Position numbers and translations under genes: made by a program
Source: Halobacillus yeomjeoni
GTDB lineage: Bacteria; Bacillota; Bacilli; Bacillales; Halobacillaceae
Direction: 5' to 3'
Assembly (NCBI RefSeq): GCF_020171525.1
Contig: NZ_JAIVAI010000001.1
Span: forward strand, 124,001 to 188,000
Length of the DNA: 64,000 nucleotides
Notes under the pieces: model-generated
The model's database searches: none
What the model was told of the DNA's origin: nothing
What the model saw: only the letters and a program-made list of their open reading frames with translations
Shown here: one piece after another, positions 5,304-29,672 of the stretch
Layout of the letters: every line of letters begins with the position of its first letter
Numbering within the stretch: the first letter of the stretch is position 1

Positions 5304-6284
5304 ATGAGTAAAAAAGTGTTGGTTATTGGTGAATCTAGAGAAGGTTCCTTAAGAAATGTCACATTTGAAGCAATTGCAGCTGCTAATATCATAAGTGACG
5401 GCGGAGAAGTCGTCGGAGTTCTTTGTGGAGCTGGAGATATGGAAGCGATGGGGCAGGAAATGGTTTATCATGGTGCTACTCGTGTCATTACTTTAGCAAA
5501 CGAAGAATTGAAAACGTATACATCAGATGGGTTTAGTCAAGCAATCTTCCAAGTAATTGAAGATGAATCCCCTGAAGGAATCGTTATGGGACATACAGCT
5601 ATCGGTAAGGACTTGACTCCAAAGCTTGCAAGTAAACTGGAATCCGGGTTGATTTCCGATGCTACAGAAGTAGTGGCTGAAGGTGATAAAATTGTGTTCA
5701 CTCGTCCTATCTACTCCGGAAAAGCATTTGAGAAGAAAGAGATTACGGATGGAGTTGTGTTTGCTACAATCCGCCCGAACAACATACCGGCATTAGAAAG
5801 GAACGAGGAACTTGCAGGTGAAGTGTCTGCCAGAGATGTGGACATTCAAAACATTCGTACCATCATAAAGGATATCATCCGTAAATCTTCCGAAGGTGTG
5901 GATCTATCAGAAGCGAAAGTTATCGTAGCGGGCGGCCGAGGAGTGAAAAGCTCTGAAGGGTTTGAACCATTAGAGCAGCTGGCTGATGTACTCGGCGGTA
6001 CGGTAGGTGCGTCACGTGGGGCATGTGATGCAGGTTATTGTGATTACTCATTGCAAATCGGCCAGACAGGGAAGGTGGTCACTCCTGATTTGTACATTGC
6101 GTGTGGAATTTCAGGTGCTATCCAACACTTGGCAGGGATGTCCAATTCTAAAGTGATCGTTGCGATAAATAAAGATCCAGAGGCGAATATATTCAACGTA
6201 GCCGATTATGGTATTGTCGGAGACTTATTCGATGTGGTTCCTAAATTAGTAGAAGAAATAAAACAAATGAAAGTGAATGCATAA
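5304..6284 (+). CDS. etfA: Electron transfer flavoprotein, alpha subunit
   Basis: A 326-residue EtfA. The N-terminal half has the ETF fold. The C-terminal FAD domain (about residues 200-326) carries the typical GGRGVKSSEGFEPL, GASRGACDAGYC, GQTGKVVTPDLYIACGISGA and INKDPEANIFNVADYGIVGD blocks. It forms the FAD-containing heterodimer with EtfB. It is the last gene of the fadR operon, with a hairpin about 50 bp after its stop. Confidence 0.95.
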   Translation: MSKKVLVIGESREGSLRNVTFEAIAAANIISDGGEVVGVLCGAGDMEAMGQEMVYHGATRVITLANEELKTYTSDGFSQAIFQVIEDESPEGIVMGHTAIGKDLTPKLASKLESGLISDATEVVAEGDKIVFTRPIYSGKAFEKKEITDGVVFATIRPNNIPALERNEELAGEVSARDVDIQNIRTIIKDIIRKSSEGVDLSEAKVIVAGGRGVKSSEGFEPLEQLADVLGGTVGASRGACDAGYCDYSLQIGQTGKVVTPDLYIACGISGAIQHLAGMSNSKVIVAINKDPEANIFNVADYGIVGDLFDVVPKLVEEIKQMKVNA

Positions 6285-6332
6285 ATTCATTCGTTTACCT
6301 TAGGCAATAAGGTAGTATGGTATGAATCATTC

Positions 6333-6373
6333 AAAGAAGCCTGAGCCGAATTATTTGGCTTTGGCTTCTTTCC
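6333..6373 (+). terminator. Probable terminator after etfA
   Basis: AAAGAAGCC at 6333-6341 pairs with GGCTTCTTT at about 6364-6372, with partly paired inner segments. The following T-run is short, so termination may be incomplete. Confidence 0.6.
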
Positions 6374-6400
6374 ATGTTTAAATGAGGTATAAACAAATTG

Positions 6401-6430
6401 TTAGTCACTAAAAATAGATAGTGATATACT
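6401..6430 (+). promoter_or_regulatory. Probable extended -10 promoter of trxA
   Basis: TATACT at 6425-6430 is preceded by the TGA of an extended -10; a weak -35 (TTAGTC, 6401-6406) lies 18 bases upstream. It would start transcription about 30 bases before the trxA start codon. Confidence 0.5.
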
Positions 6431-6464
6431 CTAATCAGACTCATTGGTCGAGGAGGAATATATA

Positions 6465-6779
6465 ATGTCAATTGTAAAAGCAACTGATCAAAACTTTACA
6501 GAAGAAACAAATGAAGGTTTAGTTCTAGCAGATTTCTGGGCACCATGGTGTGGACCTTGCAAAATGATCGCTCCTGTACTTGAAGAGCTTGATGAAGAAA
6601 TGAATGATCAAGTTAAAATTGTAAAGCTGGACGTAGATGAGAACCAGGAAACAGCTGGTAAGTATGGAGTTATGAGTATTCCTACCCTGCTTCTTTTCAA
6701 AGATGGTAAGGTCGTTGACCAAGTCATCGGTTTCCAGCCTAAAGAAGCACTAGCAGAACTGATTACAAAGCATTCCTAA
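6465..6779 (+). CDS. trxA: Thioredoxin
   Basis: A 104-residue cytoplasmic thioredoxin that reduces protein disulphides. The redox motif WCGPC covers residues 28-32 (C29 and C32), and the cis-proline is in MSIPTLLLF near residue 73. ATG 6465 follows AGGAGG at the right spacing; an upstream in-frame start at 6444 has no comparable site. It is a single-gene unit between two terminators, as in B. subtilis next to etfA. Confidence 0.97.
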
Positions 6780-6803
6780 TTGGAGTAAACACTCTAAAAG
6801 ATG

Positions 6804-6832
6804 CCGCGTTGCCTTTGCAACGCGGTTTTTTT
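6804..6832 (+). terminator. Rho-independent terminator of trxA
   Basis: A 9-bp GC-rich stem (6804-6812 with 6817-6825) and a 4-base loop, followed by seven T. Confidence 0.95.
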
Positions 6833-6896
6833 CTGTATATGTCCTCCCTTATATGATACTTTTGATAATATACTTCTAAATAATGGAGTGAAATTG

Positions 6897-8693
6897 ATGA
6901 ATTCCAATATAAAGGAAAAATTGGCGGTATTACCTGATCAACCCGGATGCTATTTGATGAAAGATAAGCATGGGACGATTATATATGTGGGTAAATCAAA
7001 AGTTTTAAAGAACCGTGTGAGATCCTATTTTACAGGTGCACATGATGGAAAGACTCAACGGCTGGTCAAAGAAATCGTTGACTTTGAATACATCGTCACG
7101 ACATCGGAAATCGAAGCTTTAATCCTTGAAATGAATTTAATAAAGAAATACGACCCGAAATACAACGTACTTTTGAAAGATGATAAAACCTATCCATATT
7201 TGAAAGTTACAGCAGAAAGACATCCTCGATTGATTGTTACCAGGAATGTGAAAAAGGATAAAGGAAAATACTTCGGTCCCTATCCGAACGTCATCGCAGC
7301 AAGGGAAACCAAAAAGTTATTAGACAGGCTTTATCCTTTACGCAAGTGTAACACCATGCCCGATCGCGTCTGTCTTTACTATCACATGCATCAATGTCTG
7401 GGGCCTTGCGTGTACCCGGTAAGCAAGGAAACCAATCAAGAAATTGTGCAGAATATCACTACCTTCTTGAATGGTGGTCATGCCGAGATCAAAAAAGACT
7501 TGAAAAGTAAAATGTATGAAGCTTCAGAAGAGCTTGATTTTGAAAGAGCGAAGGAACTCCGAGATCAAATAGAGCACATTGAATCTGTGATGGAGCAGCA
7601 GAAGATGACTATGAACGATCAAGTCGACCGTGATGTCTTCGGTTATTCGTACGATAAAGGTTGGATGTGCGTACAAGTCTTTTTTGTTCGTAGAGGTAAG
7701 CTGATTGAAAGGGATGTAGCATTGTTCCCGTTCTTTGATGATCCTGAAGAAACTTTCTTAAGTTATATCGGGCGATTCTACCACCATCAGAACCATCCTT
7801 ACCCGAAACAGGTTCTTGTACCAGTGGCGACGAATGTGGACGTACTGGACGGAATATTAGATACGAAAGTTCACATTCCTATGCGAGGCAGGAAAAAAGA
7901 GCTTGTTGAATTAGCTATGAAAAATGCTGAAATCTCACTGGAGGAAAAATTCTCGTTGATTGAAAGAGATGAAGAAAGAACAATCAAAGCGGTTGAATCT
8001 TTAGGAGATTTTTTGAACATAGAAACTCCCCATCGCATTGAAGCCTTTGATAACTCCAATATTCAGGGAGCCGATCCCGTGTCAGCTATGGTCGTCTTTA
8101 CGGATGGTAAACCGGATAAAAAAGAATACAGGAAATATAAAGTCCGTGACGTTGAAGGACCAGATGATTATGAAACGATGAGGGAAGTGATTCGGAGGAG
8201 ATATAAACGTGTTTTGAAAGAAAATCTTCCTTTACCTGATTTGATTGTTGTCGATGGAGGAAAAGGCCAGATGTCTGCAGCTATGGATGTACTTGAGAAT
8301 GAATTAGGGCTGGACATCCCCCTATGTGGACTGGCTAAAGATGAAAAGCACAAAACAAGTGAACTTTTATATGGTGAACCTCCTGAAGTCGTAGACCTTG
8401 ATAGACAATCGCAAGTTTTCTATCTTGTTCAAAGAATACAGGATGAAGTCCACCGCTTCGCTATATCATTCCACCGCCAATTAAGAGGGAAAGGTGCCAT
8501 TCAGTCTGAATTGGACAAAATTCCAGGGGTGGGCCAAAAGAGAAGAAGGTTGTTGTTAAGACATTTCAAATCTGTGCCGGAAATAAAGAATGCCAAAATA
8601 GAGGAAATTACGAAGCTCGGAATTCCCGAACCTGTTGCGAATACAATTCTCATCCATTTGAATCAAGAACAAATAGAACCAGCTGAAGAATGA
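6897..8693 (+). CDS. uvrC: Excinuclease ABC subunit C
   Basis: A 598-residue UvrC, the same length as in B. subtilis, that makes both incisions in nucleotide excision repair. The N-terminal GIY-YIG nuclease begins [20 protein letters not shown] (about residues 18-37). A UVR/UvrB-interacting segment with [15 protein letters not shown] lies near residues 205-230. The RNase H-like second nuclease has [20 protein letters not shown] near 380. A helix-hairpin-helix region with [16 protein letters not shown] is near the C terminus. ATG 6897 follows GGAGTG. No SOS box is visible upstream. Confidence 0.96.
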
Positions 8694-8713
8694 CAGCTGG
8701 TTCTTTCTTTTAC
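8676..8713 (+). terminator. Terminator overlapping the uvrC stop codon
   Basis: GAACCAGCTG at 8676-8685 pairs perfectly with CAGCTGGTTC at 8694-8703; the 8-base loop contains the uvrC TGA. A T-rich run follows and overlaps the end of the convergent yslB gene. Confidence 0.85.
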
Positions 8714-9144
8714 CCTTTAATGGCTTTAATTTCTATGATGCTTTCTTTTTTGTTGATTTCTTCAAAACACTCATATGTATGGTCCGTCAGTTTACGTAAG
8801 GCTTCAGCCAGAAAGCCGCATTCTAAACGGAAGTCGACTTTAAAGAACTTTTGATGGAGTCTCTTTTCAATGATATGACCAGATAGCTTGAAGTGTAACT
8901 CTTTCTTTTTTTCAGTTGCAAGCTCCAGCTCACCCCAGCCCATATACTGGTAAAACTCATATAGATCTTCGAAATCGTAAATCTCAGATTGTCTAGCTAT
9001 ATTCTTTCCCATGAAATAAAGGATATAGGGGGCATCTTTGCCAAGAAAGTCAGGAAGGGTATAGTAGCGGAGCATATCGAATCCGGCTCCAGTCCCTACC
9101 AGCGATGAAATGTTGCTAGTGGTTATGTTCGTCGAATCTTTCAA
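8710..9144 (-). CDS. yslB: DUF2507 family protein YslB
   Basis: A protein of about 144 residues resembling B. subtilis YslB (DUF2507) in length and position between uvrC and sdhC. Conserved features include LPDFLGKDAPYILYFMGKNI near the N terminus, a central GWGELEL, and ECGFLAEALRKL near residue 110. Its function is not established; the fold is related to V4R/bacteriochlorophyll-reductase-associated domains. A GAAAGGA site ends directly before ATG 9153, which is too close, but is 9 bases from TTG 9144, so I prefer the TTG. It is transcribed against its neighbours. Confidence 0.82.
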   Translation of the reverse strand: MKDSTNITTSNISSLVGTGAGFDMLRYYTLPDFLGKDAPYILYFMGKNIARQSEIYDFEDLYEFYQYMGWGELELATEKKKELHFKLSGHIIEKRLHQKFFKVDFRLECGFLAEALRKLTDHTYECFEEINKKESIIEIKAIKG

Positions 9145-9266
9145 AACGCTCATTCCTTTCTATATTTACATTATCACCCGAAATGGAATTTGGCGCAATA
9201 ATAATTGTGGCATTTTCCGGAAAGGAAATAAATGTGTATTTATGAGCATTTTCTACAGCCCCTTTC

Positions 9267-9295
9267 TTGACGCTCCTACTCGATAGAAGTACAAT
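9267..9295 (+). promoter_or_regulatory. Sigma-A promoter of sdhCAB
   Basis: TTGACG at 9267-9272 and TACAAT at 9290-9295 with a 17-base spacer give a 5' leader of about 133 bases before sdhC. Confidence 0.75.
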
Positions 9296-9369
9296 AAACA
9301 TGTCACAAATTGTGCATTTGTCAGATAAAAAGGAAAAACATAAGGTTTTCCTATTTTTTTCAACCAAAA

Positions 9370-9383
9370 TTAAAGCGCTTTAC
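9370..9383 (+). promoter_or_regulatory. Candidate CcpA cre site in the sdh leader
   Basis: TTAAAGCGCTTTAC contains the palindromic AAAGCGCTTT core of cre sites. It lies about 70 bases downstream of the predicted transcription start, a roadblock position. Catabolite repression of sdh is known in Bacillus; binding here is inferred. Confidence 0.55.
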
Positions 9384-9434
9384 TATCTGAAAAATGGACA
9401 AATTCAATCTGTTATCATCTTGAGGGGGGTAAAT

Positions 9435-10055
9435 ATGGCGGGAACACGAGGTTACGTTAATCGAAGACTACATTCATTACTGGGAGTCATTCCCATCGGG
9501 ATCTTTTTGATTCAGCACTTGACTGTAAACTATTTTGCAACACGTGGTCCAGAAGCATTTAACGCTGCGGCACATTTTATGGAGAGTTTACCGTATCGTT
9601 ATGTTCTGGAGATTTTTATCATCTTTTTACCACTTTTGTTCCACTCCATTTACGGGGTGTACATCGCATTTACAGCCAAAAACAATTTGGGGAACTTCAG
9701 CTACTTTAGAAACTGGATGTTCATGATTCAAAGGGTTACCGGTATCATCACTTTAATTTTCATCGCTTGGCACGTTTGGGAGACCAGAATCGCGATCGGT
9801 TTTGGTTGGGCTGAGCTGAATTATCAATTGATGGAAGGCATCCTAACAGAGCCATTCTTCTTCTGGTTCTACATAATAGGTGTGATTTCTACTACCTTCC
9901 ACTTCTCAAACGGTCTTTGGTCATTCTTTGTCAGCTGGGGAATCACTGTATCTCCACGCTCTCAACTTATGATGACGTATGCAAGTATCGTAATCTTTGT
10001 TGCGATTTCTTACGTAGGTGTGCGTACGCTGATTCAGTTTGCCTACGGTATTTAG
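9435..10055 (+). CDS. sdhC: Succinate dehydrogenase cytochrome b558 subunit
   Basis: A 206-residue membrane anchor with five predicted helices and haem-ligand histidines in segments such as RRLHSLLGVIPIGIFLIQHL and WHVWETRI. It ties SdhA and SdhB to the membrane and passes electrons from succinate to menaquinone. ATG 9435 is preceded by GAGGGGGGT; an earlier in-frame start at 9267 overlaps the predicted promoter and is rejected. It is the first gene of sdhCAB, 50 bp before sdhA. Confidence 0.94.
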   Translation: MAGTRGYVNRRLHSLLGVIPIGIFLIQHLTVNYFATRGPEAFNAAAHFMESLPYRYVLEIFIIFLPLLFHSIYGVYIAFTAKNNLGNFSYFRNWMFMIQRVTGIITLIFIAWHVWETRIAIGFGWAELNYQLMEGILTEPFFFWFYIIGVISTTFHFSNGLWSFFVSWGITVSPRSQLMMTYASIVIFVAISYVGVRTLIQFAYGI

Positions 10056-10105
10056 AACATAATCTAAACGTTGATATATAGTTATTAAGGGAGTGAGCTT
10101 CAATC

Positions 10106-11857
10106 ATGACGAATCGAAACATCGTTGTCGTCGGTGGTGGTTTAGCCGGCTTGATGGCAACAATAAAAGCAGCAGAACAAGGGGTTCACGTTGATCTGCT
10201 TTCTATAGTACCAGTTAAACGCTCTCACTCTGTCTGCGCTCAAGGTGGTATTAACGGAGCAGTAAACACCAAAGGTGAAGGAGATTCACCTTGGGAACAC
10301 TTTGACGATACGGTCTATGGTGGAGATTTCTTAGCCAACCAGCCACCGGTTAAAGCAATGTGTGACGCTGCCCCTGGAATCATTCACTTGTTAGATCGTA
10401 TGGGAGTCATGTTCAACCGGACCCCTGAAGGATTGCTGGATTTCCGCCGATTTGGGGGAACTCAGCACCACCGTACAGCTTTTGCCGGCGCGACAACAGG
10501 GCAACAGCTGCTTTACGCTCTTGATGAACAAGTGCGGCGCCATGAAGTAAATGGCCTTGTCACAAAATACGAAAATTGGGAATTCCTTTCAGCTATCGTA
10601 GATGACAATGGAGTTGGTCGAGGAGTGGTTGGTCAAAACCTGAGTGACCATGAAATCAAAGCCTTTCCAGCAGATGCTGTAATCATGGCGACTGGTGGAC
10701 CGGGTATCATCTTCGGTAAGTCTACAAACTCCGTCATCAATACAGGTTCAGCAGCAGGATCCTTGTATCAGCAGGGAGTCAATTATGCCAATGGAGAGTT
10801 CATTCAAATCCACCCTACTGCCATCCCGGGAGATGACAAGCTCCGTCTCATGAGTGAATCTGCTCGTGGAGAAGGTGGGCGTGTATGGACTTATAAAGAT
10901 GGTGAGCCATGGTACTTCCTTGAAGAAAAATACCCTGCTTATGGTAACTTGGTTCCGCGTGATATCGCCACACGTGAAATATTCGATGTGTGTGTAAACC
11001 AAAAGTTAGGTATTAATGGTGAGAACATGGTTTATCTCGACTTGTCCCATAAAGATCCTAAAGAACTTGATGTCAAGCTTGGTGGTATCATTGAGATCTA
11101 CGAGAAATTCGTAGGTGATGATCCGAAAAAAGTTCCTATGAAAATCTTCCCTGCCGTACACTATTCCATGGGTGGTATGTGGGTAGATTACGACCAAATG
11201 ACGAATATTCCTGGAATATTTGCAGCAGGTGAATGTGATTATACTCAGCATGGAGCGAACCGTCTCGGAGCTAACTCACTACTTTCTTCTATTTACGGTG
11301 GTATGGTCGCTGGACCGAACGCTGTGAAATATACAGAAGGCTTAGATGAAATTTCTGATGAGATGTCTTCAAGCTTGTTCGATGCAAAAGTAAAAGAGGA
11401 ACAAGAAAAATTCGAGGAAATCATGAACATGGACGGCGACGAAAACGCTTATCAAATCCACAAGGAGCTTGGCGAGTGGATGACAGATAACGTTACCGTT
11501 GTCCGTGATAATGAGAAATTATTGAAAACGGACGAGAAGATTGTAGAGTTGATGGATCGTTACAAACGCATCAATATCAACGATACTTCCCGTTGGAGTA
11601 ACCAAGGAGCTATGTTCACCCGTCAGTTGTGGAATATGCTTCAATTAGCTCGAGTCATCACTCAAGGGGCTTATAATCGAAATGAAAGTCGCGGTGCACA
11701 CTATAAACCTGATTTCCCTGATCGTAATGATGAGGAATGGTTGAAGACGACTGTGGCTAGTTATGATAAAGAAAATAATAAACCGGTATTCCGTTACGAC
11801 GATGTAGATACTTCCCTGATTGAACCGCGTAAACGTGACTACTCTAAGAGTAAATAA
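10106..11857 (+). CDS. sdhA: Succinate dehydrogenase flavoprotein subunit
   Basis: A 583-residue catalytic subunit oxidising succinate to fumarate with covalently bound FAD. The dinucleotide-binding motif VVVGGGLAGLMATIKAAEQG covers about residues 6-25. The flavinylation-histidine region RSHSVCAQGGINGAVN follows near residue 40. The substrate-site blocks HPTAIPGDDKLRLMSESARG and AAGECDYTQHGANRLGANSL are near residues 235 and 373. Its ATG follows GGGAGTGAG. It faces the cytoplasm in complex with SdhB and SdhC. Confidence 0.97.
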   Translation: MTNRNIVVVGGGLAGLMATIKAAEQGVHVDLLSIVPVKRSHSVCAQGGINGAVNTKGEGDSPWEHFDDTVYGGDFLANQPPVKAMCDAAPGIIHLLDRMGVMFNRTPEGLLDFRRFGGTQHHRTAFAGATTGQQLLYALDEQVRRHEVNGLVTKYENWEFLSAIVDDNGVGRGVVGQNLSDHEIKAFPADAVIMATGGPGIIFGKSTNSVINTGSAAGSLYQQGVNYANGEFIQIHPTAIPGDDKLRLMSESARGEGGRVWTYKDGEPWYFLEEKYPAYGNLVPRDIATREIFDVCVNQKLGINGENMVYLDLSHKDPKELDVKLGGIIEIYEKFVGDDPKKVPMKIFPAVHYSMGGMWVDYDQMTNIPGIFAAGECDYTQHGANRLGANSLLSSIYGGMVAGPNAVKYTEGLDEISDEMSSSLFDAKVKEEQEKFEEIMNMDGDENAYQIHKELGEWMTDNVTVVRDNEKLLKTDEKIVELMDRYKRININDTSRWSNQGAMFTRQLWNMLQLARVITQGAYNRNESRGAHYKPDFPDRNDEEWLKTTVASYDKENNKPVFRYDDVDTSLIEPRKRDYSKSK

Positions 11858-21142: not shown

Positions 21143-21216
21143 GTCCCAGTAGCTCAGCTGGATAGAGCAACAGCCTTCTAAGCTGTGGGTCGGGAGTTCG
21201 AATCTCTCCTGGGACG
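21143..21216 (+). tRNA. tRNA-Arg (anticodon UCU), target of island insertion
   Basis: The acceptor arms GTCCCAG and CTGGGAC pair. The anticodon loop CTTCTAA gives TCT, the T-loop is GTTCGAATC, and G21216 is the discriminator. CCA is not encoded. Its 3' half forms the left copy of a 51-bp repeat, so the gene is kept whole by the integrated element. Confidence 0.97.
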
Positions 21217-21218
21217 CT
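21168..21218 (+). repeat. Left attachment site (attL), tRNA-Arg 3' half
   Basis: This 51-bp segment of the intact tRNA is identical to 29622-29672. It runs from the D-stem edge through the anticodon and T arms to two bases past the discriminator. Similarity stops abruptly on both sides. Confidence 0.93.
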
Positions 21219-21469: not shown

Positions 21470-22705
21470 TTGGAAGTTATAATTGCAGACGAATTTAGCG
21501 TTCCAGGTGAATCTTTACGAAGAATGCCTAACCCTGTAGAACAAGGTATTGATAGTGATGTTCAAGTTTACGAGTTTTATCTTCAGGTAAAGCATATTCA
21601 TAAATTTGCAAATTTACCTATGGATACGAACCCACGTGAACAACATCTTGGCAGTTCTGTTTCGCAAGACATTCGCAATTCGGTAAGGTCTCCAAACCAT
21701 AGTTTGTTTCACATCCTCAACAAAGGAATAACTGTTTCAGTTTTTAAAGTGAACTATGACAATAGAACCGGAATGGTAACGTTCTATTTAGACGATCCTA
21801 AATATCACGGGAATATTGATGGTGGACATACTTTAAAGATTCTCTTGAATGAAATGGACCACGAACATGCTAAAGAGAAATTCGTAAAAGTTGAGCTTAT
21901 TACGGGACTTAACAAGAACAACTTTGTGGAAGTAACCCATGCAAGAAATACTGCTGCTAAGGTAGAACAGTTTACAATTGCAGAGCTAGAAGATAAGTTC
22001 GACATTATTAAAGAAGGATTAAACAATGAATCATTTTTAGAGAGAGTAACATTCAAGCAATTTGAGGAAAAGGTAAATAAAGATAAAAATATTCCAGTTA
22101 GACACATTACAGGTATGTTAAACTTGTTCAATATTGATAAGTATGACAATACTACTCATCCAACGACTACCTATACTGGAGTTGGAAATACCATCAACTA
22201 CTACCTCGATAATTATAATCATTGCAAGAATGCAAGCGAAAACCCATATTATAAAATGATTCCTGTAATGAGCGATTTCTTTAAGATTCACTCTCTAATT
22301 GAATCCAATTTTAAAGAGTATTATAACGAGTACGGTGGTGAAGGAAAAAAACGTGCAAACTATCTAAACCTTAGTTTTGCATCTAGTGATGATAAGACAC
22401 TACACCGAGTTAAGTACTCTAATGAAGATGAATACATTTCCTACGACGTACCTGATGGCTTAATTTATCCCATAGTAGCTTCTTTCAGGGCACTTTTAGC
22501 TGAAAGAAATGGCAAATATTATTGGGTGGTCAATCCTTATAATTTTATGAACAGTGTTATAGATAAGCTCTTTAACCTTACTGGAGAAAAGTTGAGGAGT
22601 ATTGCAAATAATCCAAGTGCGGTTGGGAAAGATTTTTCTCATTGGTTCACATTATATATGGTTGTAGAACATGAGCTCATGAAATATCAAATGCAGCTTA
22701 AATAA
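21470..22705 (+). CDS. AIPR-family (abortive infection phage resistance) protein
   Basis: A 411-residue protein with the landmarks of the AIPR family (PF10592): an N-terminal segment leading to HILNKGITVSVFKV (near residue 82), the NIDGGHTLKIL motif (about 116-126), and THARNTAAKVEQFTIAEL (about 155-172). The first AIPR protein described was linked to phage abortive infection in lactococci, and relatives occur beside restriction systems; the biochemical activity is unsettled. It starts at TTG 21470 after GAAAGGTG. It is the first gene inside attL, transcribed alone and convergent with the integrase remnant. I infer a defence role, but it may also be a partner of the modules downstream. Confidence 0.75.
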   Translation: MEVIIADEFSVPGESLRRMPNPVEQGIDSDVQVYEFYLQVKHIHKFANLPMDTNPREQHLGSSVSQDIRNSVRSPNHSLFHILNKGITVSVFKVNYDNRTGMVTFYLDDPKYHGNIDGGHTLKILLNEMDHEHAKEKFVKVELITGLNKNNFVEVTHARNTAAKVEQFTIAELEDKFDIIKEGLNNESFLERVTFKQFEEKVNKDKNIPVRHITGMLNLFNIDKYDNTTHPTTTYTGVGNTINYYLDNYNHCKNASENPYYKMIPVMSDFFKIHSLIESNFKEYYNEYGGEGKKRANYLNLSFASSDDKTLHRVKYSNEDEYISYDVPDGLIYPIVASFRALLAERNGKYYWVVNPYNFMNSVIDKLFNLTGEKLRSIANNPSAVGKDFSHWFTLYMVVEHELMKYQMQLK

Positions 22706-24530: not shown

Positions 24531-26147
24531 ATGCTTAACATTGAAAAAGTCCTTTCTAGAGCTGATGAGATCACTGTTCAAGAGATTATTGGTACTCAAA
24601 CGATAAAGATACTGCGGTTAGTAGATGAAAAATACCAGTATAATAATGCTCTTAAGAAAATGGTTCTAGAGATAGAAGGTAAAAATTTGTTATTACTAGA
24701 TCAATCGTTGCGTAATACAATAATTGATCTGTTGAAACCAGAGGAAGTTAAATTCTTAGGAACTGTTTTAGGTATTAATGTGTCTGAATCTTCTTTAATT
24801 AATGGATACGAAAAAATAAAGAAGAAGAAGTTTGCTAGAGGATCTAATGATGAAAGAGAATTGTTCACGTTTTTTGATATGGCACCACCTGACTTAGAAG
24901 TAAAGGAAGTTAATCAGGATAAATTACAAACTCAAGGTCATTACCCCTTATTTAAACACCAAAGGGTTGCTTCAAGAAATGTGGAGGATCTACTGAGTGT
25001 CTCACCCAAGAAAACATTGCTTCATATGCCTACAGGTTCTGGAAAAACAAGAACAGCTATGAATATCATTGCCGATCACTTTAGAAAGCATGAACCGACC
25101 GTTGTTATTTGGCTCGCAGCTACTGAAGAGTTATGTGAGCAGGCGGCTGAAGAATTCGAGAAAGCCTGGAGCTTTCTTGGTAACAGGCAGATTAATGTAC
25201 ATAAATATTGGGGGAATAGGTCCTTGAACCCTTCTAAGTTGGAAGAAGGACTTGTAGTGGCCGGTTTTCCTAAGCTAACTTCTGCAGCTAAGAAGGAAAA
25301 TGGCCATCAGTTCATGGCTTCATTAGCAAATAGAGTTTCTTTCGTTGTTGTAGACGAAGCCCACCAAGCTATAGCGTCAACTTATAAATTTGTATTAGAT
25401 TTCATGTTTGATCATGATCACAATAAGAAGTTATTAGGTTTAAGCGCTACACCTGGAAGGACTTATGATGACGTAGAAGCTGATCAGAAGTTGGCGAATT
25501 TTTTCTCTAAGAAGAAAGTAATATTAGAAGTGGATGGTTACGAAAATCCCGTCGACTATCTGATCGATGAAGGTTATCTAGCCAGTGTTAATTATACTCA
25601 AATGATGTATGATGGCGCTTCGTTCAATGATGTTGATTTCGACAACTTGAAAGAATTTCCTAAAAGTGTATTGAACCACCTTGGGGATGATGAAGACAGA
25701 AATATTAAAGTTATCTACGAAGCAATTAGATTATCTAAAAGGCATAAAAGAATCATACTTTTTGCACCTTCTGTGGAATCCTCTGAAAGTATTGCCTTTG
25801 TGTTAAGCAGAATGGGGGTCACTTCATACTCTTTAACCGGAAGTACGAATCCCCATAAAAGAAAAACCGTTATAGAGGATTTCAGAAACGACAAGGATGA
25901 GGTCAAAATCCTATGTAATTATGGAGTCTTGACCACAGGATTTGATGCCCCTCAAACAAGTGCAGCAATAATTGCACGTCCAACATTTTCCTTAGTTTTA
26001 TACAGCCAAATGGTAGGAAGGGCGATAAGAGGAGAAAGAGCAGGAGGAAATAAAGAGGCTGAAATCGTAACAGTTGTCGACCGAGGACTTCCTGGGTTTA
26101 GGTCTGTTGCTGAATCATTTATTAATTGGGAGGATGTATGGCAATGA
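24531..26147 (+). CDS. Superfamily 2 DEAH-box helicase of a putative defence operon
   Basis: A 538-residue SF2 helicase/translocase. After an N-terminal domain of about 135 residues that I do not recognise come Walker A MPTGSGKT (166-173), the DEAH box in VVVDEAHQA (275-278), motif III GLSATPGR (303-310), and in the second RecA lobe TTGFDAP (468-474) and motif VI QMVGRAIRG (493-501). It resembles helicases of type I/III restriction and DISARM-like systems. It should move along or remodel nucleic acid using ATP. Its stop overlaps the ATPase start by four bases, so expression is coupled. No nuclease motif is seen inside it; the PLD protein may supply that. Confidence 0.85.
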   Translation: MLNIEKVLSRADEITVQEIIGTQTIKILRLVDEKYQYNNALKKMVLEIEGKNLLLLDQSLRNTIIDLLKPEEVKFLGTVLGINVSESSLINGYEKIKKKKFARGSNDERELFTFFDMAPPDLEVKEVNQDKLQTQGHYPLFKHQRVASRNVEDLLSVSPKKTLLHMPTGSGKTRTAMNIIADHFRKHEPTVVIWLAATEELCEQAAEEFEKAWSFLGNRQINVHKYWGNRSLNPSKLEEGLVVAGFPKLTSAAKKENGHQFMASLANRVSFVVVDEAHQAIASTYKFVLDFMFDHDHNKKLLGLSATPGRTYDDVEADQKLANFFSKKKVILEVDGYENPVDYLIDEGYLASVNYTQMMYDGASFNDVDFDNLKEFPKSVLNHLGDDEDRNIKVIYEAIRLSKRHKRIILFAPSVESSESIAFVLSRMGVTSYSLTGSTNPHKRKTVIEDFRNDKDEVKILCNYGVLTTGFDAPQTSAAIIARPTFSLVLYSQMVGRAIRGERAGGNKEAEIVTVVDRGLPGFRSVAESFINWEDVWQ

Positions 26148-27979
26148 ACACTGAAACTACAAAAAACAATTCCTTTGTTCCAGCCCATCTAGCTATAGAA
26201 GCTATGAGGGATAATGGTTACAGAAATACTGCTTATGCAGTAGCGGAGCTTATAGACAATTCAATTCAAGCGGGAGCTTCTAACGTAGAGTTACTTTGTG
26301 CTGAAGAAGAAGTTCAAATGAAAACACGAACAGGGAAGCGTCTCAAAGAAATTGCAATACTGGATAATGGAAGTGGAATGGACTCAGACGTCTTAGCTAA
26401 AGCGTTGCAATTTGGTAACGGCACAAGGCTTAAGAAATCCGAAAGAACTGGAATGGGTAGATTTGGAATGGGACTACCGGCTTCTTCAATTTCTCAAGGA
26501 AAGCGAGTAGATGTATGGAGCTGGCAAAATGGAATTGAAAATGCTCAAGCTGTTACTTTAGACATTGATGATGTAAGAAAGCATAAAGTAGGAGATATGC
26601 CTTCACCAGTTAATAAACCGATTCCCGAAGAATGGCTAGAAGCTGGTAGCGTTTTTGCTGATTCCGGAACTTTAGTTGTTTGGTCTAAATTAGATCGCTT
26701 GATGTGGACTAGAGGAGAAACATTGGTTTCTCACTCAGAGTTACTTATCGGTAGAATGTATCGGAAATTTATCTATGATAATTCTGTAAAGATAAACCTC
26801 AAGGTTTTCGAATATTACAATCCATCTATGTCGTCTTTCGAGAAGTATACATTGCCTAATGATCCACTTTATCTAATGGAAAACACTAGTTGCTCTGAAC
26901 CTTTTAATGAAGATGCAATGTTTTTACCTTATGGCGGTATAGAAAATTATGAAAAGAAATTCACCATAGAAGCGGATGGTGAAGAGCATGAGATGACTAT
27001 AAGACTTTCTCTTGCTAAGGATGAGGCTAGAACTGGGAATGCAGGTAATAAGCCCCATGGGAAACACGCAGCGAGTAATGTTGGTATTTCCATTGTTAGA
27101 GCAGGTCGAGAACTAGAATTAGACAATACATTGGTTTTAAAATATGATCCGACTGAGAGATGGTGGGGGGTGGAGGTTGATTTTCCGCCTTCTTTAGATG
27201 AGCTTATGGGGGTAACCAACAATAAGCAAACTGCTAGGAATTTCTCTGATATCTTAAGTATCATAGAAGATATCGAAAAAATGCAAAAAAATAATAAGAG
27301 CATAAGAGAAATTCAAGCTGAATACGAAGAAGAAGGGGATCCTAGAGCGCCTCTTATCGTAGTTTGTGATTTTATCAATAAGAAAATAAAACAGATGAGA
27401 AAGTACGTTAACATGCAGAACAAAGGGACTAGAAAGAAAAGATATGAAGATCCTGATAATGGTCCTGAGAAAAAGGCAACTGACTTCACAAATAAAAGAA
27501 AAGACAATGGATATTCAGGGGCTAGTGATGCAGATGAAATAAATCCTCCTGATCGCAGAGAACAGGACATTGAAGAAGGTTTAACAAGTCAAGGCTTAGA
27601 TGAAAGTACTGCGAAAGAAGTTGCGCAATTTACTGTTAAGCATAATCTTAAGTATTCCTTTACTGAGTTTCCTTTTGAGAGTGATGCTTTCTTCACAGTC
27701 CGCCCATGTGGTGGTGCTATTAACATTGCAATTAACAAGGAGCACCCTGCATATAGTAATTTGGTGGAAGTGTTACTAGATAATGGAGATGAGACAGAAA
27801 GTGTCGAGAAGTTAAGAGAACGTTTAGCGAAAGCTTCGACAGGTTTGAAATTGTTATTGGCTGCATGGGCAAGACACGAAGATGAAGCTCCAGATGGTCA
27901 AAGAAAAGATATGATTCAAGCTATTAGAAGAGAATGGGGGATAGTAGCTAAGAACTTCATGAGAGAAAGAGAAGGTTAA
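26144..27979 (+). CDS. MORC-like GHKL ATPase of the putative defence operon
   Basis: A 611-residue protein with a complete N-terminal GHKL (Hsp90/MutL/MORC-type) ATPase: the N-box AYAVAELIDNSIQAGA with Glu35 and Asn39, DNGSGM at 74-79, and the lid glycines GMGRFGMGLP at 103-112. An S5-type transducer region follows to about residue 330, then a charged linker and an unrecognised C-terminal domain (about 480-611). Such ATPases act as ATP-gated clamps. Prokaryotic MORC-like proteins are known from comparative genomics beside restriction-type helicases and nucleases. ATG 26144 overlaps the helicase stop; ATG 26138 is also possible. Confidence 0.82.
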   Translation: MNTETTKNNSFVPAHLAIEAMRDNGYRNTAYAVAELIDNSIQAGASNVELLCAEEEVQMKTRTGKRLKEIAILDNGSGMDSDVLAKALQFGNGTRLKKSERTGMGRFGMGLPASSISQGKRVDVWSWQNGIENAQAVTLDIDDVRKHKVGDMPSPVNKPIPEEWLEAGSVFADSGTLVVWSKLDRLMWTRGETLVSHSELLIGRMYRKFIYDNSVKINLKVFEYYNPSMSSFEKYTLPNDPLYLMENTSCSEPFNEDAMFLPYGGIENYEKKFTIEADGEEHEMTIRLSLAKDEARTGNAGNKPHGKHAASNVGISIVRAGRELELDNTLVLKYDPTERWWGVEVDFPPSLDELMGVTNNKQTARNFSDILSIIEDIEKMQKNNKSIREIQAEYEEEGDPRAPLIVVCDFINKKIKQMRKYVNMQNKGTRKKRYEDPDNGPEKKATDFTNKRKDNGYSGASDADEINPPDRREQDIEEGLTSQGLDESTAKEVAQFTVKHNLKYSFTEFPFESDAFFTVRPCGGAINIAINKEHPAYSNLVEVLLDNGDETESVEKLRERLAKASTGLKLLLAAWARHEDEAPDGQRKDMIQAIRREWGIVAKNFMREREG

Positions 27980-27984
27980 TAGGT

Positions 27985-28926
27985 ATGAGTTTTATCCTCC
28001 ACTCAAAAGAATTCTTAAGCACATTAAAAAAGAATTTGAAAAATACTTTAGATGATTTAGTTGTTGTTTCTGCTTATGTAAAGGTCGATGCGCTAAAGGT
28101 GATTGATGAAAATTTAGTGCATCACCCAAGAAAAAAGAGACTATTGGTCCGATTTAGAATGGATGACGTTGTTTCGGGTAGTAGTGATTTTGAATTGGTT
28201 AATTACTGCATGGAAAATAACTGGGAGTTGTTCATTAATTTCGATCTTCACTCCAAGATCCTAATCTTCGATAAGTCACAATTTATGTTGGGGAGCGCAA
28301 ATGTAACCTTGTCTGGGCTAGGATTATCCAATAACCCAAACATTGAGAGTGTAGTCTTAGGTGATTTGGATGAAACTCAAATCAGTAAAGTGAATTCGTT
28401 ATTTGATAATTCTTTGAGAATGGACAGTGGATTATCCTCGGAGATGCGAGACCAACTTGAAAAATTAATTGATTCAGACAAAGCAAGTGCACCTTTAAAG
28501 TGGAACAAGGAGATCATAGATAAACATAATAACCTAACAAATGTTGAGGAGTTGTGGTGTTCTGAAATGTTTTTTAGCAATACACCGTTTGATATGTTTA
28601 GCAGTGACTGCTCATTACTAGGAATTACGAGCAGAGACGTTGGTGATGTAGATTTACTAAGGAGGCAGTTTGTAAAAACAAAAGTTTTCAGATGGTTCCT
28701 CAACTCATTTGACGATGAGATATATTTTGGCAGACTAACCAAACAATTACATTCTGCACTAATAGACCATCCTGCCCCGTACAGAAAAGATGTAAAGGAG
28801 TTTTTATCCAACTTAATAAATTGGATACGTGATTTACAAATCGAAGGGATTATTATTGATCAACCTAATTATTCCACAAGAATTCGAAAAGTATCCTCGC
28901 ACTTAAATGATCATACAAAACTCTAA
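27985..28926 (+). CDS. PLD-family nuclease of the putative defence operon
   Basis: A 313-residue phospholipase D-superfamily protein with a single HKD motif: DLHSKILIFD with H89, K91 and D96, followed by GSANVTLSG (103-111). The N-terminal beta-alpha segments (VVVSAYVKVDAL, KRLLVRFRMDD) fit the PLD nuclease fold. Single-HKD members such as Nuc and BfiI dimerise to form one active site and cut DNA. It follows the ATPase gene by five bases. The C-terminal half (about 140-313) is unrecognised and may bind DNA or partners. This is the likely effector nuclease of the operon. Confidence 0.82.
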   Translation: MSFILHSKEFLSTLKKNLKNTLDDLVVVSAYVKVDALKVIDENLVHHPRKKRLLVRFRMDDVVSGSSDFELVNYCMENNWELFINFDLHSKILIFDKSQFMLGSANVTLSGLGLSNNPNIESVVLGDLDETQISKVNSLFDNSLRMDSGLSSEMRDQLEKLIDSDKASAPLKWNKEIIDKHNNLTNVEELWCSEMFFSNTPFDMFSSDCSLLGITSRDVGDVDLLRRQFVKTKVFRWFLNSFDDEIYFGRLTKQLHSALIDHPAPYRKDVKEFLSNLINWIRDLQIEGIIIDQPNYSTRIRKVSSHLNDHTKL

Positions 28927-28943: not shown

Positions 28944-29183
28944 ATGAATAAAACAGATATAGTAAATCAGGTTACAAGTAAAAGACCATTACAAAAGCTG
29001 AGTACAAAAAAAGCTTTAGATAGTATTCCTGATACTTTGACTAGTGAGCTCTCAAATGGCAATAAAGTTCAATTTCCTAATATTGGAACATTTGAAGTTA
29101 AAAAAGAGCTGAAAGAAAGGGGAGAAACCCTTAATCAGGGGAGGTACAAATTATTCCTTAATTCAGCCCCAGTGAAGTGTTAA
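28944..29183 (+). pseudogene. Divergent, truncated HU-like DNA-binding protein gene
   Basis: A 79-codon frame 17 bp after the PLD gene, with AAGGAAG before the ATG. It begins MNKTDIVNQV like HU and keeps NGNKVQFPNIGTFEVKKELK, matching the HU core (NGDKVQLxGFGxFEV). The arm and C-terminal region are altered and the usual last ~12 residues are missing. It is probably decaying or has lost its C terminus, though a functional short HU-like protein cannot be excluded. Confidence 0.55.
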
Positions 29184-29621: not shown

Positions 29622-29672
29622 CAACAGCCTTCTAAGCTGTGGGTCGGGAGTTCGAATCTCTCCTGGGACGCT
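29622..29672 (+). repeat. Right attachment site (attR), tRNA-Arg fragment
   Basis: An exact copy of 21168-21218: the anticodon arm, variable region, T arm and acceptor 3' strand of tRNA-Arg without its 5' half, so it is not a functional tRNA. Confidence 0.95.

Follow-up and report, generated by a model that had tools for sequence, protein, structure and literature searches.

A helicase, a MORC-like ATPase and a phospholipase D-type nuclease as a candidate restriction partner of SspABCD phosphorothioation

How does a compact operon that looks like a restriction system recognise the DNA of its own host when no modification gene lies beside it? The question is raised by positions 24,531 to 28,926 of a 64,000-nucleotide stretch of Halobacillus yeomjeoni DNA (contig NZ_JAIVAI010000001.1, positions 124,001 to 188,000), called here the window. 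Three genes follow one another there, encoding a superfamily 2 (SF2) helicase, a GHKL ATPase and a phospholipase D (PLD)-type nuclease, together referred to as the trio. A first-pass annotation had regarded them as a compact defence system and had concluded that, with no methyltransferase, self/non-self discrimination must work in another way. The question was well put, and its most likely answer is phosphorothioation (PT) of DNA by SspBCD. Ssp genes accompany the GHKL family in nearly all the loci collected, and in this genome they are found on another contig. The description as a restriction-like helicase, MORC-like ATPase and PLD module is supported by the present analysis, and its self-containment is not. 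Probably the trio is no self-contained three-gene system: it would supply restriction, and SspBCD the modification with which it is paired. Taking together both ways in which the mark could be read, the pairing with SspABCD is held with good confidence.

24531-26147, + strand: gene 1, SF2 helicase (ResIII/DEAD plus Helicase_C) with a RadD/PbeA-like core, 538 residues
26144-27979, + strand: gene 2, MORC-like GHKL ATPase with a GHKL plus S5-like region followed by a family-conserved C-terminal part, 611 residues
27985-28926, + strand: gene 3, single-HKD PLD-type nuclease, its C-terminal half mostly helical, 313 residues

Linkage of the trio to Ssp genes

Loci of the GHKL family were collected with the GHKL protein as query. 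A pattern scan of a genome contig collection yielded 13 loci. The plasmid search returned 16 records, 13 of which covered at least 80% of the protein, and 12 of those 13 were examined; the records left out were H5 (a second Trichormus plasmid, of the same species and with the same 49.2% identity as H4) and H15. Adding G405 and G556 from the genome sample of the window's order, and the window itself, gave 28 loci. Two contig loci, L012 and L023, come from the same genomes as G594 and G633, as matching coordinates indicate, and were counted once.

At least one of SspA, SspB, SspC and SspD was found in the same stretch in 27 of the 28 loci. The linked loci span five groups, namely Bacillota, Cyanobacteriota, Bacteroidota, Alphaproteobacteria and Spirochaetota. 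The genes form an unbroken run SspB-SspC-SspD-helicase-GHKL-PLD in L075, and an unbroken run helicase-GHKL-PLD-SspB-SspC-SspD in L012 and L074. A helicase match lies upstream of the GHKL gene in 27/28 loci, the exception being L024, and a PLD gene is present in 16/28 only. The GHKL gene itself is cut by a contig end in L019 and broken in L024 and L038.

The two other proteins were searched against the same 72,556 plasmids. The helicase (E ≤ 1e-25) retrieved 15 records, consisting of 13 records of the GHKL set, a Rhodobacteraceae SC52 plasmid and a Bacillus badius plasmid. The PLD protein (E ≤ 1e-5) retrieved 8 records, seven of the GHKL set and SC52. In the B. badius stretch, the helicase relative (30%) has no annotated Ssp, GHKL or PLD gene around it. 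The SC52 stretch (L094) has, at 6237-11156, genes for a divergent GHKL protein of 561 residues and a PC4-domain protein of 210 residues, which may be a single-strand DNA binder, ahead of the helicase and PLD genes; a PAPS reductase and an ATP-binding protein, also annotated in this stretch, are by our reading SspD and SspC. GHKL cousins outside the family, in L076 (27%) and L041/L042 (30-31%), gave no match to the Ssp queries. Against phage records the GHKL protein had two matches, neither covering more than 80% of the query.

Co-occurrence was also evaluated for whole genomes, with SspB scored as DUF4007 and, in the sample of the window's order, the GHKL family scored at E ≤ 1e-60. Among 299 genomes of that order, 5 carried the GHKL family and 18 carried SspB, and the overlap was complete for the former (5/5; Fisher p = 4.4e-7, relatedness being ignored). 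The two genes share a contig in four of these genomes, about 1 or 6 kb apart; the fifth is the window genome. For a cyanobacterial order (195 genomes) the corresponding counts were 13 and 54 with an overlap of 12/13 (Fisher p = 7.9e-7, again ignoring relatedness), and in 11 of the 12 the genes lie on one contig within about 17 kb. DUF4007 was detected in all 13 genomes behind contig loci L012-L024 and in 0/14 control genomes. Pairing with PT is the most likely reading because 27/28 loci are linked to Ssp genes and genomes with the GHKL family also carry SspB.

Several further observations were made at individual loci. In Nostoc and its near kin (L013, L017-L022, L024) the helicase is truncated, split or missing and the GHKL frame is open except in L024 and, at a contig end, L019; a frame that by eye is HNH-like or carries a helix-turn-helix often ends near the helicase break. 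At the place of the PLD gene, two Rhizobiales loci encode a protein of 359 residues (L032, 9028-10107; L033, 13786-14865) with PD-(D/E)XK-like motifs seen by eye, for which Pfam gave no match. In several cyanobacterial loci a DndB-like (DGQHR) gene stands 5' of the helicase: L015 (4084-6354), L029 (2419-4779), L034 (8034-10370) and L035 (7878-10184), the last two with the annotation DNA sulfur modification protein DndB. On the Rhodobacterales plasmids L041/L042 (9905-16131), two MORC-like GHKL genes are near neighbours, and the next gene is of the DruA or DUF4338 type.

Proteins, proposed mechanism and alternatives

The three frames are intact in the window, with an ATGA overlap between the first two and a 5-base gap before the third, and their catalytic motifs are in place, as the first-pass annotation had described; the family alignments show these motifs to be conserved. 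The GHKL start was placed at ATG 26144, with alternative starts upstream at ATG 26138 and TTG 26126. A single promoter, as the first-pass annotation had claimed, was not established, since the scan gave 21 promoter-like sites and 25.8 were expected by chance.

In the PLD protein, H89, K91, D96, G103, S104 and N106 are invariant in 14/14 aligned sequences (an alignment without L074/L075). The GHKL alignment had 23 rows (omitted were L019, cut by the contig end, the broken L024 and L038, and L074/L075, which were found later), and E35, D38, N39, D74, G78, M79, G103, G105, F107 and G108 are invariant in all of them. The helicase DEAH motif is retained in 15/17 aligned helicases and lost in the two from Rhizobiales; truncated helicases, L038 and L074/L075 were left out of that alignment.

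Pfam identified ResIII (4.6e-25) and Helicase_C in the helicase, whose N-terminal approximately 135 residues are covered by none of the families matched. Its profile found RadD as the nearest solved structure (4e-39) and SauUSI as the second. In the GHKL protein Pfam identified HATPase_c_3 (1.1e-24). The nine distinct sequences matched by its profile among solved structures (E ≤ 0.01) are all eukaryotic MORC2, 3 or 4, and a fold search with its AlphaFold model, of low confidence (mean predicted local distance difference test, pLDDT, 64), ranked SMCHD1 and MORC2 at the top with MLH1 and MutL close. The PLD protein matched PLDc_2 weakly and below threshold (3.8e-05; 24 bits, cut-off 27). The AlphaFold model for it, built from a four-sequence input, has middling confidence (mean pLDDT 65). 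Its structural matches are to the PLD superfamily: SauUSI ranked first, followed by the archaeal DNA-binding protein TrmBL2, Helicobacter pylori NucT and Salmonella Nuc, and then by other PLD-fold nucleases and lipid enzymes, including the NgoAVII R protein at rank 28.

From sequence we infer that the trio would restrict phage and that PT would be the mark it reads. Together with a cysteine desulfurase, SspBCD puts sulphur into one strand of the host DNA backbone. In the scheme proposed, the three proteins of the trio would jointly attack DNA that lacks the mark. The helicase would move along the DNA or open it. GHKL ATPases close as ATP-dependent dimers, and the GHKL protein may dimerise in this way as a clamp that links mark reading with the movement of the helicase and with cutting by the PLD protein. 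Enzymes with a single HKD motif work as dimers; two PLD subunits would form one active site, producing a nick or a cut. In the window genome the module would have arrived on a small tRNA-Arg island lacking modification genes, and it would use the mark set by the SspFGH-SspBCD operon on another contig.

This polarity, in which PT protects, is given a slight and tentative lean. A weak hint in its favour is that helicase decay accompanies a partial or split SspB in the 13 contig loci: SspB is partial or split in four, and in all four the helicase is broken or missing, as compared with 4/9 of the loci with an intact SspB (counted by hand). The same hint of mark dependence speaks against the reverse polarity within the Ssp pairing, an effector that stays silent until PT-marked host DNA switches it on, whereupon it would attack or block invading DNA without the mark. 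All the linkage evidence fits such a PT-activated effector equally, as does an island without Ssp genes: being harmless in a PT-free host, it would suit a mobile island that brings no modification genes. The helicase core is also nearest to PbeA among the best 25 of its 42 PADLOC hits (9.8e-29), and both PbeABCD (PMC6459918) and SspE (PMC8092258, PMC13251355) are reported to be PT-dependent; here and below, statements on published work refer to the available parts of the papers cited. We regard this polarity as possible, if somewhat doubtful.

Two readings outside the Ssp pairing were weighed. According to the idea of the first-pass annotation, the trio would work independently, the helicase sensing foreign DNA, the MORC-like clamp gating it and the PLD protein cutting, and the SspBCD neighbours would reflect shared defence islands. 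No modification gene is seen near the trio in the window, and prokaryotic operons combining MORC and SF2 helicase genes with other partners exist (PMC2292703). Such independence is nevertheless improbable in view of the linkage to one particular system across five phyla, several times in unbroken runs, and of a co-occurrence of 5/5 and 12/13 against backgrounds of 18/299 and 54/195. Alternatively, the trio might assist PT modification or repair DNA nicked by SspB, for which nicking activity has been reported (PMC8092258), with a RadD-like helicase, a MutL/MORC-like ATPase and a PLD phosphodiesterase as its parts. The nearest solved relative of the helicase is indeed a repair protein, and the GHKL protein falls in the MutL/MORC superfamily. 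The GHKL gene, however, is missing from most SspB genomes, so that PT modification seems independent of it, and in two loci the place of the PLD gene is taken by an unrelated protein with nuclease-like motifs seen by eye. A role in repair or as a helper is therefore considered quite unlikely.

A number of findings weigh against the preferred reading of the trio as a restriction module paired with SspABCD. The window is itself the one unlinked locus among the 28, its Ssp genes being on another contig, and in the cyanobacterial genome G840 the GHKL and SspB genes are likewise on different contigs. The cyanobacterial genome with GHKL but without SspB, G872, has a match interrupted by a stop and starting only at profile position 105; internal stops occur in 3/13 cyanobacterial GHKL matches (G728, G753 and G872). 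The Fisher values disregard relatedness, and the order sample includes the genomes of L012 and L023. No PLD gene was found in 10/28 loci, all of them from cyanobacteria (Nostoc and its close relatives); of these ten, L014 and L016 have an intact helicase, and the other eight have one that is truncated, broken or missing. In the two Rhizobiales loci, another protein at the PLD place coincides with a helicase that lacks DEAH. No PT-reading domain could be assigned in the three proteins, with the PLD and GHKL models from AlphaFold taken into account. Finally, the GHKL family is absent from 13/18 SspB genomes of the window's order and 42/54 of the cyanobacterial order. It is therefore seen as an optional partner, as expected for a restriction module.

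The island and the Ssp operon of the same genome

The trio lies in an island bounded by an attachment-site-like pair of exact 51-nt repeats at a tRNA-Arg gene, the starts of the two copies being 8,454 bp apart. This bears out the tRNA-inserted island described by the first-pass annotation. The further features are:

21143-21217: tRNA-Arg
21168-21218, no strand: left copy of the 51-nt exact direct repeat (3' half of the tRNA-Arg plus the next base; copies 100% identical)
21470-22705, + strand: AIPR-family gene, 411 residues, with plasmid relatives
22807-23175, - strand: tyrosine integrase remnant, C-terminal part only (Pfam Phage_integrase 1.5e-10, profile positions 59-159 of 172)
28944-29183, + strand: HU-like short frame (Pfam Bac_DNA_binding), 79 residues, directly 3' of gene 3
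29622-29672, no strand: right copy of the 51-nt repeat

Thus the island consists of the AIPR-family gene, the integrase remnant, a stretch in which no long frames occur, the trio, and the HU-like frame, which may or may not belong to the operon. It contains no Ssp genes and no modification genes. The AIPR gene gave no Pfam or NCBIfam match; it matched ten plasmid records, nine annotated as AIPR family protein and one unannotated. The other defence-type genes that had been claimed for the island therefore come down to this single gene. Ten genes outside the island were tested with Pfam and none belonged to a defence family: they encode trigger factor, ClpX, Lon, a ribosome-binding GTPase, glutamyl-tRNA reductase, a valyl-type tRNA synthetase, RNase PH, a sporulation (Germane) protein, a solute-binding protein and a HATPase_c protein.

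The island site was compared with stretches of five sibling genomes. In G677, about 1.3 kb separates the tRNA-Gly and tRNA-Arg genes from the right flank, as compared with 9.3 kb in the window. G674 and G402 have a copy of the tRNA 3' half before the flank and no tRNA gene within the stretch compared, which suggests other insertions at the tRNA-Arg site; in G682 and G684 the right flank alone was matched. With such apparent insertions in siblings (L092, L093), the site may be an integration hotspot.

The Ssp genes of the window genome (G000) were located on contig C2 at about 274.7-293.4 kb (L027, L028), as a minus-strand run SspF-SspG-SspH-SspB-SspC-SspD. Next in the run come two genes, one McrB-like (AAA_5) and one McrC-like (DUF2357-PDDEXK_7), the Mcr labels being our own, and this Mcr-type pair may belong to the operon. 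In the GHKL tree, for which the program warned of long branches elsewhere, the window protein is sister to a Rossellomorea GHKL (72% identical, support 100/100), and the four members of the clade other than the window, Rossellomorea among them, are all linked to SspBCD. Since the sister and the clade are linked, the unlinked state in the window is most simply derived, by a later separation through the island. The SspB of the window falls, with weak support (81/77), in a Bacillota group that also holds trio-linked SspB, and the tree places it no more closely than that.

Comparison with known systems

The trio had not been recognised as a named system in the first-pass annotation, and the comparisons below agree with that. 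Literature searches, in which subscription papers were mostly outside the scope and others were covered in part, gave no description of the trio as an Ssp partner. One close precedent is the work of Iyer, Abhiman and Aravind (2008), which describes MORC/paraMORC restriction operons with a GHKL-S5 ATPase beside an SF2 helicase and a nuclease; HKD domains are mentioned for a few of them, and paraMORC2 is mainly found in cyanobacteria and Gram-positives (PMC2292703). Some of the cyanobacterial trio genes may already be in a figure of that paper. The operons described in its available part are restriction-modification systems with methylases and without PT, whereas the trio is PT-linked. The MORC motif GhXhhpXXRhl of the S5 domain is found in 0/23 GHKL sequences, which have Glu where a hydrophobic residue is required; all 23 carry G[ILV]S[ILV][VIL]RxxxE[LIM] instead. 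Assignment to paraMORC2 was rejected because the ExxxH at the end of S5 is not conserved among the 23 sequences. By its profile and fold matches the GHKL protein can be placed in the MORC superfamily in the broad sense.

With MzaB of the MZA system it shares the GHKL N-terminal domain (NCBIfam 3.1e-21, residues 18-191), the rest of the protein being uncovered. The match reaches 75.3 bits and the cut-off is 850, so it was rejected as an MzaB equivalog; Mza partners were not sought. DISARM, which had been offered as a comparison, consists of DrmA, DrmB and a methyltransferase, with the PLD protein DrmC. Neither DrmA nor DrmB is among the best 25 of the 42 helicase hits in PADLOC, and the DrmC match of the PLD protein is weak and at the PLD level (PADLOC 8e-07; NCBIfam 15 bits, cut-off 133), so the comparison was dropped. 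The type IV enzyme SauUSI also combines a PLD nuclease with an SF2 helicase and was the top PLD fold match and second helicase relative. It differs from the trio as a single polypeptide with an SRA reader that cuts modified DNA, and no GHKL partner is named for it in the available part of PMC12707154.

Among PT-dependent systems, SspABCD-SspFGH of Vibrio anguillarum FF-93 is likewise a three-gene restriction module, with the modification partner presumed for the trio, and the trio possibly follows the same logic, PT-marked DNA being spared. It lies beside sspBCD; relatives of the trio have Ssp genes in the same stretch in 27/28 loci, and the window locus has sspBCD on another contig. SspF has a Walker A motif and SspH an FtsK/SpoIIIE-like end, and no helicase/GHKL/PLD trio is described in the parts of PMC8092258 available. 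The trio was not identified as SspFGH, as the SspF, SspG and SspH models match the C2 genes of the same genome instead; no Ssp model appears among the best 25 of the 42 helicase hits, the one GHKL hit and the 17 PLD hits in PADLOC. SspE uses the PT modification genes that are also the presumed partner of the trio. It is a single NTPase-nuclease of the DUF262-DUF1524/HNH type (PMC12707154, PMC13251355), and this identity was discarded because Pfam shows no DUF262 or HNH-type domain in any of the three proteins. In three Bacillota loci DUF262-type genes were seen, after the trio in L023 (10829-13030) and L075 (17496-19169), and after SspD in L012 (16146-17831); for the L012 protein the best matches were PDC-M55C and HEC-05, and none to an SspE model was obtained at E ≤ 0.001. 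The "histidine kinase genes" reported beside SspE in 211 Acinetobacter strains, in the available part of PMC7464106, could be GHKL ATPases and not kinases.

PbeABCD, Dnd-linked and present in archaea and bacteria, has four components: a PLD-helicase fusion, an ATPase of the ABC type and a pair of small proteins (PMC6459918, PMC10853773). PbeA fuses PLD to a ResIII-type SF2 helicase, whereas the trio has both as separate genes; PbeC is a CxC-type ABC ATPase (PMC10853773), whereas the ATPase of the trio is of the GHKL type. The modification partners are Dnd and Ssp, respectively. The trio was therefore not assigned to PbeABCD: its PLD and helicase are unfused, its ATPase is not ABC, and it has no counterpart of the small PbeB or of the DndE-like PbeD. 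The main text of PMC10853773 discusses HKD and SF2 helicase in Dnd-type systems, and the words GHKL, PLD and paraMORC are absent from it.

For sspBCD, 2,211 of 2,678 loci were reported without sspFGH or sspE, and the existence of further restriction partners was asked about (PMC8092258). The trio is a concrete candidate for such a partner, seen in five phyla, and if the reading is true it would explain some of the SspBCD loci for which none has been identified in published work. The MORC superfamily, whose eukaryotic members act on chromatin, would then gain a bacterial member that reads a backbone mark, and PT restriction modules could travel without their modification genes. The trio matches none of the three restriction branches, DndFGH/SspFGH, SspE and PbeABCD, set out in the available part of a 2025 review (PMC12707154). 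We give about an even chance to its being an unnamed fourth branch of PT-based immunity, in which recognition of sulphur in the DNA backbone would be coupled, through a MORC-like ATPase, to a helicase and a nuclease on separate proteins, present here as a lone plug-in on a tRNA island that takes its mark from the unlinked SspBCD-SspFGH operon.

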